Source of the DNA: Temperatibacter marinus | GTDB lineage: Bacteria > Pseudomonadota > Alphaproteobacteria > Sphingomonadales > Kordiimonadaceae | Direction of reading: 5' to 3' | Assembly (NCBI RefSeq): GCF_031598375.1 | Contig: NZ_CP123872.1 | Location: forward strand, 1,054,001-1,118,000 | Length of the DNA: 64,000 nucleotides | Shown: piece after piece, positions 34,607 through 51,872 of the stretch | Layout of the letters: every line of letters starts with the position of its first letter | Position numbering within the stretch: position 1 is the stretch's first letter | Made by a program: the position numbers and the translations under genes | The notes under the pieces: model-generated | The model's input: only the letters and a program-made list of their open reading frames with translations | Databases searched by the model: none | Told to the model about the DNA's origin: nothing

Positions 34607-36990
34607 TGAAATTCACTCTCTCATGGCTTAAAGACCACCTGGAAACAGAGGCTAGCCTTACAGAAATCCTTGATATACTGAATGCCATCGGGCTTGAAGT
34701 TGAAGAGGTTGTAGATCCTTCTGAGACATTAGGCGCCTTTAAGATTGGTTATGTAAAAGCAGCCGAAAAACATCCGGATGCTGATAAACTTCAAGTCTGT
34801 ATTGTTGATACTGGATCTGAAGAAATTACGGTTGTTTGCGGGGCACCAAATGCTCGGGCTGATATGAAAGTTGTGCTTGGACGACCTGGCGACTATGTCC
34901 CGGGCCTTGATGTAACTTTGGCACTGCGTCCTGTGCGCGGTGTTGAGAGTAATGGCATGATGTGCTCAAGCGCTGAATTAAACCTTGGTGAAGACAGTGA
35001 CGGCATTATGGATTTGCCTGCTGATGCACCTGTGGGTGAAAGTTACATAGATTACGCAGGCCTTAATGACCCAGTTATTGAAATCGCCATCACCCCTAAC
35101 AGACAAGATTGCTTGGGGGTTTACGGTATCGCGCGCGACCTTGCTGCGGCCGGTCTTGGACGGTTAAAGCCTTACCAAATACCTGAAATTAAAGGATCTT
35201 TTGAAAGCCCTGTTTCTGTTTCAGTTCAAGGTGAGGGGTGCCCAGCCTATATTGGCTATTCCTTTAGAGGGGTCAAAAACGATCAGAGCCCACTTTGGCT
35301 TCAGAACAGGTTGACATCTGTTGGGGTTAAAGTGATCAGCAAGCTTGTGGACGTCACCAATTATATTTCATATGAATTTGGACGCCCTTTGCATGTTTAT
35401 GATGCAGCAAAAGTGACTGGCAATATTGTCACGCGTGTGGCAACAGAAGGTGAAAGTTTCACAGCCCTTGATGATAATGAATATACTTGTATTGGGGGCG
35501 AGAGTGTGATTGCAGATGAGGCTGGTATATTAGGATTTGCCGGTATTATCGGGGGCAGTGCAAGTGGCGTTTCTGAAGAGACGACAGATGTTATTTTAGA
35601 GATTGGATATTTTGACCCAATCCGCGCAGCAACCACAGGTCGCCATCATGGTATTTTAACCGATGCACGCTATCGCAGTGAGCGGGGGCTAGATGCTGGC
35701 TTTATGGAGGCGGGCGCTAAAATTGCTGTGCAAATGATCTTAGATTTATGCGGTGGGGACGTCTCACAGCCATTCAGCGATGGCACAGCCCCAATTCTTG
35801 ATAAGACGGTGAGCTTTAGAAGTGACCGTGTGATGACCCTTGGCGGCGTAGACCTTCCTGCAGAAAAGAGTATTGAAATTCTTTCAAGTCTTGGCTTTAC
35901 AGTGCAAGAAAGTAATCCATATATGGTTACAATACCCTCTTGGCGTACAGATGTGGACGGAGAGGCGGATCTGGTCGAGGAAGTTCTGCGTATATATGGG
36001 TATGATAATATTCCGTCTGTGCAGCTTGATGTAACAAACCATAAAGCCGGCACAACCTTGTCTGATAATCAAAAGCGGGCCCGAGCTACAAAACGGGGTC
36101 TAGCCAGCTCTGGTATGCATGAAGCGGTCACTTGGTCCTTCATGTCCCAGGCTGATGCTGTCGCTTTTGGTGGTGGAGATTCGAAGCTCACAGTAGATAA
36201 TCCAATCTCTAGTGATTTGGATCAGATGCGTCCGTCGATTTTACCAAACTTGTTGAAGGCGGCGCAAAGAAACAAAGACCGCGGTAACGGCAACATGGCC
36301 CTCTTTGAAGTTGGGCCTGTTTATCTAGATGATACAAACAAGGGTCAACTGCTTGTCGCAAGCGGTATACGAACGGGTCAAACCAATGAGCGTCACTGGG
36401 CGGTTGCGTCTGATGATGTCAGTGTTTTTGAGGCAAAAGCAGATGCATTGAGAGCCTTGGAAGCGGCTGGGGCACCTGTACAAAATTTACAGGTCTTTAC
36501 AGAGGCCCCTGAGTATTATCATCCAGGTCGTAAAGGAACACTGCGGTTGGGACCAAAGAATATTCTTGCAAGCTTTGGTGAATTGCACCCCTCTGCTCTG
36601 AAGGCATTGGATGTTGACGGGCCTGCAGTTGGATTTGAAGTTTATTTAGACCGCATTCCGGCTGCGCGCAACAAAACAGCGAATAAGGGCGCATTGGATG
36701 TATCAAACCTTCAGAGCGTTGAGCGAGATTTTGCTTTCCTTGTCGATCAAAATAAAGCAGCAGGAGATTTATTACGCGCTGTGAAAGGGGCAGATAAGAA
36801 ATATATTTCTTCGGTCTCACTCTTTGATGTTTATGAAGGAAAGGGTGTACCAGAAGGCCAAAAGTCTTTGGCTCTCTGTGTTACTCTGACACCGGATACA
36901 ACAACCTTTGCTGATTCTGATATTGAACAGATTTCTGCTAAGATCATACAGGCGGCACATAAGTCTGTGGGTGCAGAGCTACGCGGATAA
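34606..36990 (+). CDS. pheT: Phenylalanyl-tRNA synthetase beta subunit
   Basis: Beta subunit of PheRS with editing function, 794 residues. Order of domains: N-terminal OB/tRNA-binding domain (residues 40-150, HPDADKLQVCIVDTG), B3/B4 editing domain (about 210-390), B5 DNA-binding-like domain, catalytic-like core, and a C-terminal FDX-ACB anticodon-binding domain (LQSVERDFAFLVDQ). The initial ATG overlaps the pheS stop by one base. Bidirectional-type terminator follows. Confidence 0.99.
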   Translation: MKFTLSWLKDHLETEASLTEILDILNAIGLEVEEVVDPSETLGAFKIGYVKAAEKHPDADKLQVCIVDTGSEEITVVCGAPNARADMKVVLGRPGDYVPGLDVTLALRPVRGVESNGMMCSSAELNLGEDSDGIMDLPADAPVGESYIDYAGLNDPVIEIAITPNRQDCLGVYGIARDLAAAGLGRLKPYQIPEIKGSFESPVSVSVQGEGCPAYIGYSFRGVKNDQSPLWLQNRLTSVGVKVISKLVDVTNYISYEFGRPLHVYDAAKVTGNIVTRVATEGESFTALDDNEYTCIGGESVIADEAGILGFAGIIGGSASGVSEETTDVILEIGYFDPIRAATTGRHHGILTDARYRSERGLDAGFMEAGAKIAVQMILDLCGGDVSQPFSDGTAPILDKTVSFRSDRVMTLGGVDLPAEKSIEILSSLGFTVQESNPYMVTIPSWRTDVDGEADLVEEVLRIYGYDNIPSVQLDVTNHKAGTTLSDNQKRARATKRGLASSGMHEAVTWSFMSQADAVAFGGGDSKLTVDNPISSDLDQMRPSILPNLLKAAQRNKDRGNGNMALFEVGPVYLDDTNKGQLLVASGIRTGQTNERHWAVASDDVSVFEAKADALRALEAAGAPVQNLQVFTEAPEYYHPGRKGTLRLGPKNILASFGELHPSALKALDVDGPAVGFEVYLDRIPAARNKTANKGALDVSNLQSVERDFAFLVDQNKAAGDLLRAVKGADKKYISSVSLFDVYEGKGVPEGQKSLALCVTLTPDTTTFADSDIEQISAKIIQAAHKSVGAELRG

Positions 36991-44092: not shown

Positions 44093-45679
44093 ATGGCATT
44101 AACGCCGAGATTAGATTTAAAACAATCACAACAGCTTGTGATGACGCCGCAATTGCAGCAGGCGATCAAGCTGTTACAATTGTCTAATCTTGAACTGGCA
44201 GACTTTGTTGCCGCTGAAGTGGAACGGAATCCCATGCTTGAAGTGGGGGACCCAAATGACTTTTCTGCAGGGGAAGTAGACCGTCCACAAGATAGCGGGA
44301 CAGCTGAATTACTGACAGAGGGTGGCTCGGATGGCGGCGATGGCAGTGATGGTTTAATCGCAGCGGATAATGCTCTGAATGGGGCTGTCGATACGATGAG
44401 CAGCGCTGAAGGCGCGCTTGATGCTAATATGTCGCTGAATATTTATAACAATGATTCTGTATCGGATCGCGTTGAAAAGACAGATACGGCCGGTGAAATC
44501 GGTGCGTCGGGGTCTCTTAGCTATGACGGAGGCGGTGCAGTACAAACCAGCGGTGGCTATTCGGGCGAAAATAACTTCGAAGCAATGTTGGCAGACGGTG
44601 AGAATCTTCACGATTCTCTAACCAGCCAAATGATGGTGACCTTGAAAGACCCCATTGATCGATTGATAGCTACCCATTTGATCGACCTTGTGGATGAGTC
44701 TGGCTATATCAATGGTGAACTTGCTGATGAAGTGGCCGAGCGCCTCGGTGCCGCTTCAGAAGATATTGATCGCATCCTTGAAGGCCTGCAGACACTTGAA
44801 CCTGCTGGTGTATGTGCCCGAAATTTGGAAGAATGTTTGGCCATTCAATTAAAGGACTTGGATCGATATGACCCCGCCATGCAGGCTTTGGTAGAAAACC
44901 TTCCTCTTCTTGCGCGACGAGAAATGACAAAATTGAAAAAGCTCTGCGGCGTTGGCCAGGATGATTTGACGGATATGATTCGTGAAATCAGACAATTGAA
45001 TCCAAAGCCTGGGTTAGCATTTGGCGGAGAAAGTGTGCAACCTGTTGTCCCGGACATTTTTGTCTTTAAAAATAAAGCGGGCCTTTGGTCTGTTGAATTA
45101 AATACAGACACTCTGCCAAAAGTATTGGTGAATAACAGTTATGTTTCTGAACTGAGTGAAACAGCTACAGGGAAAGAGGCCAAAGCATTTATATCTGATT
45201 GTGTTTCTGGAGCCAATTGGTTGGTAAAAGCATTGGATCAAAGAGCTCGGACGATTTTGAAAGTTGCATCAGCCTTGATTAAACATCAGGAGAGTTTTTT
45301 CCAGCACGGCATTCGATTTCTTAAACCTTTAACATTGAAGGATATTGCTGAAGAAATCGACATGCATGAAAGTACAGTCTCTCGCGTGACCAATAATAAA
45401 TTTATGTCTTGCCCAAGAGGAATGTTTGAACTGAAATATTTTTTCACGTCATCAATTGCTGCTGGAGATGGCGGGGATGCTCATTCATCCGAGTCGGTAA
45501 AATTCCGCATTAAAGAATTAATTGATGCAGAGGATCCGAAGAAAATTTTATCTGATGATAAATTGGTCGATATTCTTAAAAAAGAAGGCATTGATATCGC
45601 AAGGCGCACGGTAGCAAAATATCGAGAGGCGCTTAAAATTCCTTCCTCAGTTCAACGACGTCGACAAAAAAATATTTAA
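44093..45679 (+). CDS. rpoN: RNA polymerase sigma-54 factor
   Basis: Sigma-54, needed for enhancer-dependent promoters. The 528-residue protein has the glutamine-rich region I (LDLKQSQQLVMTPQLQQAIKLLQLSNLELADFV), the acidic region II, the core-binding region (ARNLEECLAIQLKDL), the HTH with HESTVSRVTNNKFMSCPRGMFELKYFF and the RpoN box ARRTVAKYREALKIPSS. The long acidic stretch (residues about 60-180) is Gly/Asp/Ser-rich. Together with hpf and ptsN it forms the conserved rpoN neighbourhood. Confidence 0.99.
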   Translation: MALTPRLDLKQSQQLVMTPQLQQAIKLLQLSNLELADFVAAEVERNPMLEVGDPNDFSAGEVDRPQDSGTAELLTEGGSDGGDGSDGLIAADNALNGAVDTMSSAEGALDANMSLNIYNNDSVSDRVEKTDTAGEIGASGSLSYDGGGAVQTSGGYSGENNFEAMLADGENLHDSLTSQMMVTLKDPIDRLIATHLIDLVDESGYINGELADEVAERLGAASEDIDRILEGLQTLEPAGVCARNLEECLAIQLKDLDRYDPAMQALVENLPLLARREMTKLKKLCGVGQDDLTDMIREIRQLNPKPGLAFGGESVQPVVPDIFVFKNKAGLWSVELNTDTLPKVLVNNSYVSELSETATGKEAKAFISDCVSGANWLVKALDQRARTILKVASALIKHQESFFQHGIRFLKPLTLKDIAEEIDMHESTVSRVTNNKFMSCPRGMFELKYFFTSSIAAGDGGDAHSSESVKFRIKELIDAEDPKKILSDDKLVDILKKEGIDIARRTVAKYREALKIPSSVQRRRQKNI

Positions 45680-49475: not shown

Positions 49476-49871
49476 CTAAAGGTCTTTGTCGATTTTTTCT
49501 GAATGATGATAAAGGTTTTTAGGATCTTCAATTTCTACCACCCATACATCAGGATCGTAACGTCTTTCTTTTGAAATTTTTTCGTCGATTTCTTTTTCTG
49601 AAAGATTTTGATCAGAGGGGGGATTATCCTGCATATGAGAAGGTGTTCGTCGCCAAACGCGGTTGCCCTCAAAATCGGTAGCTTGTTGTAAGAGATAAGC
49701 AGTTCCATCCATCAAACAGACTTTTATGAGGATTGTGCCGCGCTCCCGATCGCCGCGTATCACTTGAAATGCCATAAGTCCTGCGACTTGGCACTGTCTG
49801 ATGAGGGCTTGTACCCATAATTCTGAGTTGAGGCGGCTACGCCCTTCGGAGGAAAACATATATTTATTCAC
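49476..49871 (-). CDS. DUF1491 family protein
   Basis: A 131-residue protein of the DUF1491 family: RLNSELWVQALIRQCQVAGLMAFQVIRGDRERGTILIKV near the start and RRYDPDVWVVEIEDP near the end, both family-typical. It overlaps the PilZ gene end by 8 nt, so the two are co-translated. The function is unknown; the family is confined to alphaproteobacteria as far as I know. Confidence 0.9.
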   Translation of the reverse strand: MNKYMFSSEGRSRLNSELWVQALIRQCQVAGLMAFQVIRGDRERGTILIKVCLMDGTAYLLQQATDFEGNRVWRRTPSHMQDNPPSDQNLSEKEIDEKISKERRYDPDVWVVEIEDPKNLYHHSEKIDKDL

Positions 49872-50214
49872 TTAAGCCCAAGGTTTGCAAACTGTCTTTG
49901 AATATTCGCTTAATTTCCGAATCTGGGACCATGAAGAGCAGTCCGCACGATTCTTCGTCCTGCCAAGCGATGCGTGCCTTAACACTGCTGTTGTTTTTCT
50001 TAGGGAGAGATAGCGTGACGTCGGTTCCTTCTTTAAAGGGGAGATCCACTCGGATGCGCGCCCCGCCAAGGGATAGATTCCATATTTGACAAGGAAATTC
50101 ATGGCCGTTTACTGTTAAGAGGGCAGGCCAAAGGACTGAGCGTCGATTGTGCTGACGCTGACTTTGAGACTGAGAGTCGTTCTTTTGTTTAGAAAGATTC
50201 GGCATAGGTTTCAA
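49864..50214 (-). CDS. PilZ domain protein
   Basis: A 116-residue protein with a single PilZ domain, likely a c-di-GMP receptor. The conserved RxxxR-like motif is QHNRRSVLWPA (around residue 22-27), followed by IWNLSLGGARIRVD (the D/NxSxxG motif is NLSLGG). It is divergent from the LuxO-like regulator gene; the region between them holds the LuxO-type repeats. Its downstream partner DUF1491 overlaps. Confidence 0.88.
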   Translation of the reverse strand: MKPMPNLSKQKNDSQSQSQRQHNRRSVLWPALLTVNGHEFPCQIWNLSLGGARIRVDLPFKEGTDVTLSLPKKNNSSVKARIAWQDEESCGLLFMVPDSEIKRIFKDSLQTLGLSE

Positions 50215-50302
50215 ATTATCCGTTAAATAAGCACACAGAGTATGCCTTTTAATCTATTCAATGTCATTATTTCCCTAAAAAATAGCTAAAATTTAAGGGA
50301 AC

Positions 50303-50315
50303 TTGCAACATGCAT
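50303..50315. promoter_or_regulatory. LuxO-type operator-like site 1
   Basis: TTGCA-ACA-TGCAT, one mismatch from the Vibrio LuxO consensus TTGCA-W3-TGCAA. It lies 73 bp before the TTG at 50388. Confidence 0.5.
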
Positions 50316-50331
50316 TGTCGTACAGCTGAAT

Positions 50332-50350
50332 CTGTTGCATCTTGCAACAG
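50332..50350. promoter_or_regulatory. LuxO-type operator-like site 2
   Basis: CTGTTGCA-TCT-TGCAACAG, a perfect 8-bp inverted repeat with TTGCA-N3-TGCAA at its core (50335-50347). Its centre is 32 bp from site 1. It overlaps a promoter-like TTGCAA (50342-50347). Confidence 0.6.
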
Positions 50351-50387
50351 TTCTGGTACTTTAAACTAATTCTGCGTTTAAGAGGTC

Positions 50388-51872
50388 TTGACTAAGTCAT
50401 ATAGAGGGAGTCGGCGAAGCGTAAGAGTGAGAGGGAAGACGTTAGTGACAGGGGGGGATGTGACAAAACCTGCATCAATATTGATCGTCGAAGACAGTCG
50501 TTCTTTGGCGCTGACCTATGTGGTTTATCTTCAGGATCAGTCCTTTTCGGTTTCAACCGTCGAAACGGGGCAGGAGGCGAAGAAAGCAATTTTAAAAAAT
50601 CGTCCAAAAATAATATTACTAGATTTAAAACTTCCAGATATGGATGGTTTAGATATTTTGAAATGGATGAATTCTAATAAAATTACGGCTCAAGTGATCG
50701 TTATTACAGCCCATGGTTCAGTCTCTATTGCTGTGGATGCTATGCAGGCTGGGGCTTTTGATTTCTTGTTGAAACCTTTTTCCAAGGAACGCCTTGTTAC
50801 CACAGTACGCAATGCTTCTAAACTTATTGAATTAGAAACAATTGTTGAACATTACAGAGACAATTCCAATAGTAAAGCAGTGGGGGATTTTATAGGAGAA
50901 AGTGCCCCTATGAAGGCTGTCTATCGCATGATAAGTGATGCGGCTCCTTCTCGCGCCAGCACCTTTATCATGGGAGAATCTGGGACTGGGAAAGAATTAT
51001 GTGCGGAAGCTATTCATCTTCATAGCCCAAGAAAAGAAAAACCTTTCGTCGCATTAAACTGTGCTGCCATTCCTGCGAATCTGATCGAAAGTGAAATTTT
51101 TGGTCATAAGAAAGGGGCGTTCACCGGAGCCTCAGAGGATCGAGACGGGGCGGCGGTAAAGGCGGATGGAGGCACGCTTTTTCTTGATGAGATTTGTGAA
51201 ATGCCGATGGATTTACAGGCGAAGCTTCTTAGATTTGTCCAAAATGGGACCGTCATGCCCTTGGGCAGTACAGACGAGGTTAAAGTGAATGTGCGCTTTG
51301 TCTGTGCCACCAATAGAACGCCGTGGGAGGAAGTGGAAAGAGGAACTTTTAGAGAAGACCTCTATTATCGGTTGCATGTAATCCCCATTCATTTACCGCC
51401 GCTTAGAGATCGGGGAAATGATATCATTCGAATTGCTGAATATTTACTCCATCGCTATGCAAAGGAGGAAGGAAAAGACTTTGAGAAGATTGGTCCTTCT
51501 GCAATTTCTGCCTTAATGGCGCATGATTGGCCTGGAAATGTGCGAGAGTTGTCCAATGTTATTCAGTCTGCTGTTGTGTTGAATGAGGGGCCAGATCTTA
51601 AAGGAACAATGATTGCTGATTTAGTGGGCCGGGGTCGCCGTCGGCGAGACCAGTTAAGTCACGCTCAGACAGAGTCCAAACAAAGAATGACTGTTCATCA
51701 AGATGATCAAGAGGTTGAAAGTATAAGGCCCCTTGATCAAGTTGAAAGGGAGGCCATAGAGCATGCTATTGCCTTGATGGATGGGAAAGTTCGGAAGGCA
51801 GCAAAAGCATTGAATGTGAATGCTTCAACGCTATATAGGAAAATGAAATCATGGGGTGTCGATCCGGTTTGA
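50388..51872 (+). CDS. LuxO-like sigma-54-dependent response regulator
   Basis: A 494-residue enhancer-binding protein with a receiver domain (residues about 30-145, phospho-acceptor Asp 79 in ILLDLKLPDMDG), a AAA+ domain (Walker A GESGTGKE at 196-203, GAFTGA at 243-248 for sigma-54 contact) and a Fis-type HTH (VRKAAKALNVNASTLYRKMKSWG) at the end. The AAA segment ALNCAAIPANLIESEIFGH and the HTH YRKMKSW closely resemble Vibrio LuxO. Start uncertain: TTG 50388 has AGAGG only two bases away; GTG 50427, 50445 or 50460 would shorten the disordered basic N-terminus. Two LuxO-type sites lie upstream. Confidence 0.9.
   Translation: MTKSYRGSRRSVRVRGKTLVTGGDVTKPASILIVEDSRSLALTYVVYLQDQSFSVSTVETGQEAKKAILKNRPKIILLDLKLPDMDGLDILKWMNSNKITAQVIVITAHGSVSIAVDAMQAGAFDFLLKPFSKERLVTTVRNASKLIELETIVEHYRDNSNSKAVGDFIGESAPMKAVYRMISDAAPSRASTFIMGESGTGKELCAEAIHLHSPRKEKPFVALNCAAIPANLIESEIFGHKKGAFTGASEDRDGAAVKADGGTLFLDEICEMPMDLQAKLLRFVQNGTVMPLGSTDEVKVNVRFVCATNRTPWEEVERGTFREDLYYRLHVIPIHLPPLRDRGNDIIRIAEYLLHRYAKEEGKDFEKIGPSAISALMAHDWPGNVRELSNVIQSAVVLNEGPDLKGTMIADLVGRGRRRRDQLSHAQTESKQRMTVHQDDQEVESIRPLDQVEREAIEHAIALMDGKVRKAAKALNVNASTLYRKMKSWGVDPV

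Follow-up and report, generated by a model that had tools for sequence, protein, structure and literature searches.

LuxO and the Qrr RNAs form the core of quorum sensing in Vibrio. A preliminary description of a stretch of the Temperatibacter marinus genome (the window, 64,000 nucleotides of contig NZ_CP123872.1) placed two LuxO-type sites in front of a gene for a LuxO-like regulator, which raises the question of what such an operator does in an alphaproteobacterium. Both sites are present with a spacing of 32 bp, the second within a perfect 8-bp repeat (Table 1), and their sequence matches the LuxO sites of V. cholerae in the accessible part of a ChIP-seq study (PMC10328515).

The gene behind the boxes encodes a response regulator and sigma-54 activator of the LuxO subfamily, in agreement with the LuxO-like AAA domain and HTH that had been described. 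It scores 578 bits with the LuxO model NF041946 and 398 bits with the next family, NtrC. Because 578 bits lies under the curated 800-bit cut-off, which is passed by 8 of 398 sampled genomes, we assign the protein to the LuxO subfamily and not to the LuxO equivalog. Its Pfam domains have the LuxO architecture, with a receiver domain, an AAA+ domain containing GAFTGA and a Fis-type HTH, and the closest PDB sequence is that of LuxO (5ep0). The GTG at 50445 was chosen as the likely start codon (the frame is open from TTG 50388), and the protein used in the searches begins one codon past it, at 50448; in this numbering, the likely phospho-acceptor Asp in LLDLKLPD is residue 59. The HTH is identical to that of the LuxO encoded at locus L060 at 11 of 24 residues, including S-T-x-Y-R-K. 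We infer that the window protein keeps the LuxO DNA specificity (TTGCA-N3-TGCAA) and putatively binds these boxes. An activator of the LuxO type needs sigma-54 (RpoN) as a partner, and an rpoN gene is present in the window.

Table 1 Features of the window, in window positions, and the sRNA gene, in genome positions (last row)
Feature	Coordinates	Strand	Basis and details
rpoN (sigma-54) gene	44093..45679	+	PF04552 1.6e-67, PF04963 3.7e-53, PF00309 4.7e-19
PilZ-domain gene, divergent from boxes	49864..50214	-	PF07238 1.6e-13
LuxO-type box 1, TTGCAACATGCAT	50303..50315	.	1 mismatch to TTGCA-N3-TGCAA
Perfect 8-bp inverted repeat CTGTTGCA-TCT-TGCAACAG, together CTGTTGCATCTTGCAACAG	50332..50350	.	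19-bp palindrome around box 2
LuxO-type box 2, TTGCATCTTGCAA	50335..50347	.	perfect; 32 bp from box 1
LuxO-subfamily response regulator / sigma-54 activator gene	50445..51872	+	NF041946, 578 bits
Receiver domain	50478..50807	+	PF00072 7e-28
AAA+ sigma-54 interaction domain	50892..51392	+	PF00158 7e-68; GAFTGA at residues 223-228
Fis-type HTH (HTH_8), recognition region NVNASTLYRKMKSW	51732..51851	+	PF02954 1.3e-9
sRNA	about 557428-557542	-	-24 at 557567; loop core 557498-557486; terminator end near 557428

Taken one by one, the boxes of the window are not above chance, since three with at most one mismatch were found and 4.97 in shuffled sequences. The whole genome (3,184,799 bases) contains six perfect TTGCA-N3-TGCAA sites, four of them inside ORFs (171 to 680 residues) and two outside, namely box 2 and a site at 557653. 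A reversed-pattern control of this genome scan (34 vs 119) was set aside for its non-comparable base composition. The excess over chance lies in the conservation seen upstream of orthologues, not in the number of boxes in the window. Among the 27 other Kordiimonadaceae orthologues, four have a box of no more than one mismatch within 200 bp upstream (0.04 expected; binomial p 1e-7); when two mismatches are allowed, the number is 12 (1.4 expected; binomial p 4e-9). The value of 1.4 derives from a background of the same loci, which are largely coding and may make it too low; with the higher background of 0.57 per kb of the RNA loci described below, it rises to ~2.5. Five orthologues (L017, L026, L028, L029 and L030) also have a partner box 31-32 bp away, so that six genomes including T. 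marinus carry such a pair before the gene; the five pairs are not independent events, because all belong to one subclade. As a positive control, all 8 luxO loci that exceed the LuxO cut-off, from genomes taken as Vibrionaceae, were found to have a box. The comparison of orthologue upstream regions that had been suggested thus gave a divided result, as 15 of the 27 orthologues, and G006 too, have no upstream box with at most two mismatches. These 15 and the low box count in the window are what one would see if the window boxes were chance palindromes. The 12 boxes against 1.4 to 2.5 expected and the five 31-32 bp partners contradict this, as does the location of the other perfect site outside ORFs at an sRNA promoter. 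We therefore rejected a chance origin, which we consider highly improbable, on the orthologue conservation counts.

The site at 557653, 547 kb from the window site, belongs to three boxes in a row; ~98, 121 and 140 bp downstream of these, a sigma-54-type promoter reads into a hairpin RNA. Other copies of the sites in the genome had been suggested to mark Qrr-like small RNAs of the sigma-54 type, and by sequence this was right: LuxO boxes, a sigma-54 promoter and a terminated putative sRNA are all present as sequence features. The proposed genome scan, run as box-N68-98-sigma-54 promoter, had a single match in the T. marinus genome, at the RNA, and none with the reversed control, the N68-98 range having been chosen after the sRNA promoter was seen. 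The box-N-promoter pattern was matched in 118 of 398 genomes, a count that we judged to be mostly chance and therefore did not use as evidence. In several other alphaproteobacteria with LuxO-like genes, a box and a sigma-54 promoter precede protein-coding genes (L281 in G430, L284 in G044, L287-L289 in G407, G299 and G411, and L283 in G332); the gene behind them was confirmed as H-NOX in G430, and the others were read from their first residues only.

The sRNA adjoins a gene for an apparently secreted 145-aa protein (L043:10829-11266; genome position 557828), homologues of which occur in 27 of 29 family genomes; neither the protein nor two of its homologues has a Pfam match. We collected the 27 family loci via this gene, not via the boxes. 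All 27 have TGG[CT]A[CT]-N5-TTG downstream of the boxes, and a conserved stretch starts ~12 nt past it. At the -12 element, 24 of the 27 loci read TTGT or TTGA and only three TTGC. Allowing two mismatches, 25 of the 27 loci have one or more boxes at the RNA promoter. Counted from the -24 element, the interval from -170 to -70 contains 63 boxes; 60 of them lie close to -98, -121 or -140, and the remaining three are in L177. Two boxes outside this range (L188 and L194) were excluded from the position count. Box density at the promoter is 11.7 per kb, against 0.57 per kb in the rest of these loci. In L185 (G027) no box can be recognised, despite an HTH of ordinary appearance, and the arrays of several related loci are partly degenerate. 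In one lineage (L170, L171, L185, L190 and L195), TGTCTC/GAGACA-type half-sites or long inverted repeats replace full TTGCA boxes. The boxes also lie upstream of the 145-aa gene homologue in 25 of 27 loci, and the array could serve both this gene and the sRNA; given the sigma-54-type promoter and the RNA on the other strand, being the promoter of the 145-aa gene is unlikely to be its main role.

The RNA folds into a long hairpin whose apical loop contains ACUCGACCCCCAAUCG, and an intrinsic terminator follows; its start near 557542 was placed from the promoter. The loop sequence ACUCGACCCCCAAUCG does not vary among the 27 family loci but does in other families, and a strict script found the terminator in 20 of the 27. 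Folding z-scores average -4.8 (range -1.7 to -6.8). In the inner stem, 96% of cells are paired and 7 of 11 pairs have changed on both sides; the covariation score was attained by 0 of 500 shuffles, and slid versions of the stem pair at 58% at most. Covariation is limited to the inner stem because the outer stem, seen in single-sequence folds, is left unpaired in the alignment-based consensus. Rfam gave no match for four sRNA loci (L169, L183, L187 and L176) at E up to 1, Qrr (RF00378) included, nor for the window and three loci of the T. marinus genome. The sRNA family is new in that it is not in Rfam. A tandem duplication was noticed at L179 (G018), with the second copy ~100 nt downstream. 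Small hairpins with the same or nearly the same loop, lacking boxes and a sigma-54 promoter, occur at L232-L237 (G028, G020, G002, G004 and G027); they are possible sibling RNAs or sponges and were not counted as members of the RNA family.

The sRNA would present its C-rich loop to targets, pairing with G-rich stretches of mRNAs. A search of 29 genomes for the exact 11-mer complement of the loop found 76 matches, and the reversed-pattern controls 22. Of the 76, 30 are the sRNA itself and 46 are others, comprising 40 contexts that were read, five loop hairpins and one further match. With this exact 11-mer and these 29 genomes, no shared or conserved target was found among the 40 contexts, most of which are inside ORFs; a few (L364, L374 and L381) lie at most ~50 nt upstream of possible starts, each time of different genes.

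A covariance model detected the RNA in all 29 Kordiimonadaceae genomes; a broader model, run on 296 genomes of the order, detected it in 43, the additional 14 belonging to three other families. A class survey of 385 genomes, which used a narrower model and strict filters, had two matches, T. marinus and a weak one in G044 (E 0.006). The latter, where there are neither boxes nor a promoter, was judged spurious. Of the 14 RNA loci outside the family, 13 combine a correctly spaced GG-N10-GC with one or more boxes of no more than two mismatches, and 12 of these 13 box-bearing genomes encode a LuxO-clade protein of at least 441 bits; in the thirteenth, G832, which is 64% complete, the best match has 274 bits. 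A LuxO-sigma-54-sRNA switch is likely to operate throughout the Kordiimonadaceae and three other families of the order, with an sRNA unrelated in sequence to that of Vibrio. LuxO-like genes also occur in genomes in which the RNA was not detected (G033, G044, G050 and G054).

Two genomes serve as natural controls. The fourteenth genome, G035, has kept the RNA but has neither a box nor a sigma-54 promoter; read by eye, TTGTCT-N16-TTATAT stands in place of the latter. No LuxO match was found in it at 1e-120, the best related protein having 329 bits. In G046 and G055, of the same family as G035, neither a LuxO-clade protein nor the RNA was found, for G046 also with the broader model. In G006, the recognition region of the window-type orthologue reads IGTATLYRRIRAW as compared with the usual VNPSTLYRK, and the RNA promoter has no TTGCA box; instead, it carries TATCA-N3-TGATA-type palindromes at -127 and -85. 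These are 42 bp apart, which is the spacing of the outer boxes elsewhere, while a third palindrome is off the usual middle place. No palindrome of this type is present near the promoter in the other 26 loci. We count the joint change of HTH and boxes in G006 as one event; together with the conserved boxes, it is an indirect sign that proteins of this type bind TTGCA-N3-TGCAA.

Which regulator uses the array is complicated by two LuxO-like paralogues in the T. marinus genome (602341 and 2122084), each beside an H-NOX gene. Each also has a kinase-like ORF as a neighbour, one of them a hybrid kinase by Pfam, and a small Hpt-like ORF, one of which matches Pfam Hpt weakly and under the cut-off (E 0.003) while the other has no match. 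The gene sets of LuxO-like regulator, Hpt-like ORF, H-NOX and kinase span L044:5079-8984 (near 2122 kb) and L045:6324-10222 (near 602 kb). In Vibrio, a nitric-oxide relay runs from H-NOX through a hybrid kinase and Hpt to LuxO; T. marinus thus has two such gene sets with LuxO-like paralogues, but the window gene belongs to neither. The paralogues share the STxYRK helix core, and together with their H-NOX and kinase neighbours this would fit a scheme in which they are the main proteins on the sRNA-promoter boxes and the window pair serves cross-regulation. We consider this unlikely. Only 12 of the 29 family genomes have a second LuxO-like gene (46% identity or more), and 11 of these have an H-NOX gene within ~2.5 kb of it; the exception, G028, is 76% complete. 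Boxes at the RNA are present in 15 of the 17 genomes that lack a second gene. The window-type orthologue, in contrast, is present in all 29, which makes it the best candidate regulator, and the altered HTH of G006 is in this orthologue. The two paralogues could still share the boxes. A related situation is described in the accessible text on V. fischeri, where SypG, a LuxO paralogue, acts at qrr1 through UAS sites overlapping those of LuxO (PMC10162802). As far as that text goes, the likeness is in the presence of second LuxO-like activators and the difference is that the Temperatibacter paralogues are tied to H-NOX genes.

With the window-type protein as the regulator, its main conserved job would be the activation of the one sRNA gene in Table 1. 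The phosphorylated protein, putatively bound to the three boxes upstream of the -24/-12 promoter, would act with RpoN to produce the hairpin sRNA. In T. marinus and some relatives, it would also occupy the boxes before its own gene and limit its own expression. Judged from sequence, we regard it as quite probable that the LuxO-type activator of the window drives the sRNA via boxes and sigma-54 and also uses the boxes of its own gene.

For these own-gene boxes, the absence of a visible sigma-54 promoter makes repression the likelier outcome; around box 1, none was seen by eye at an sRNA-type distance on either strand. In V. harveyi, luxO is autorepressed, according to the available portion of a published study (PMC3482212), and by analogy the boxes in front of the window gene, if bound, probably limit its own expression. 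A simple sigma-70 scan of 50180-50480 gave no support to the possible -35 that had been placed under site 2; it returned one candidate, oriented toward the PilZ gene. The gene described as a PilZ gene divergent from the sites does encode a PilZ domain, and RxxxR and NLSLGG motifs can be read in its translation; as it is just a neighbour of the boxes, the link to c-di-GMP that had been drawn from it is at most a candidate one. In a number of loci (L012, L013, L019, L022, L027, L028 and others), the stretch from pilZ to the luxO-like gene contains a block resembling GTAAAACAATCGTCACTAA, with AATTTTCATAAA after it. Since the two genes have the intergenic region in common and the sole sigma-70-like match faces pilZ, the pair may instead be an activator site, or the site of another regulator, for the PilZ gene. 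We regard this as possible but doubtful. In L026, L029 and L030, the second box falls, by eye, between the two elements (17-bp spacer) of a possible promoter directed at the luxO-like gene, and the V. harveyi precedent, within the part of that study that is open, also speaks for autorepression.

The boxes could also serve a divergent small RNA beside the regulator gene, as in Vibrio. In V. cholerae, the LuxO peak near luxO lies between qrr1 and luxO (table of PMC10328515, a source available in part), and the Rfam Qrr model RF00378 matched beside luxO in three of four luxO loci (L060, L062 and L065, not L066). In the window, however, no sigma-54 promoter is seen near the boxes and there is no Rfam match, and the only match of the sRNA model is away from the boxes, at 36561, with a chance-level E of 0.74. 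An sRNA beside the window boxes was rejected for this reason, and we find this reading scarcely credible. The parallel that had been drawn with LuxO binding near its own gene is qualified accordingly, as far as the published table shows: the V. cholerae peak adjoins an RNA gene, and no such RNA was found at the window boxes. Autorepression remains the likelier reading of the window pair, with two results against it: only 12 of 27 orthologues carry an upstream box, and the scan gave no sigma-70 promoter under site 2.

The operator, the type of activator and the logic of this system are already known from Vibrio LuxO-Qrr. Both have a LuxO-subfamily activator, TTGCA-N3-TGCAA boxes, a sigma-54 promoter, a small RNA with an intrinsic terminator and a box near the regulator gene. 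The RNA itself shows no sign of being Qrr. The Kordiimonadaceae sRNA has no detected similarity to Qrr and folds into one long hairpin, the apical loop of which is rich in C; T. marinus has a single copy, 547 kb from the regulator gene; conversely, the sRNA model found nothing in 8 luxO loci. Among alphaproteobacterial RNAs, we compared it with Caulobacter alphaR8 (SisA-D), which, in the accessible part of its description, has a core UUUCCUCCCU after a weak hairpin and promoters without a common motif (PMC12559287). The two are alike in that both are small, have a single-stranded core rich in pyrimidines and end in a terminator, going by the same partial source. They differ in that the core here is the apical loop ACUCGACCCCCAAUCG and is combined with LuxO boxes and a sigma-54-type promoter. 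The core UUUCCUCCCU, as given in that part of the source, was not seen in sRNA alignment A3, and there was no Rfam match either. In the literature, of which open coverage is partial, we found no report of a LuxO circuit in Alphaproteobacteria or of small RNAs in Kordiimonas.

The find is thus an sRNA family outside Rfam with a family-invariant loop, a candidate regulator and a promoter. Because loop, candidate regulator and promoter are in hand, a direct test is possible in culturable Kordiimonas species, and G035 and G006 offer natural experiments for LuxO-DNA recognition. If the proposed circuit is true, the pairing of LuxO with a trans-acting sRNA would be much older than Vibrio quorum sensing, or it would have been invented twice around the same operator. 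The present family lets the question of whether LuxO-driven small RNAs existed before quorum sensing be asked with data.
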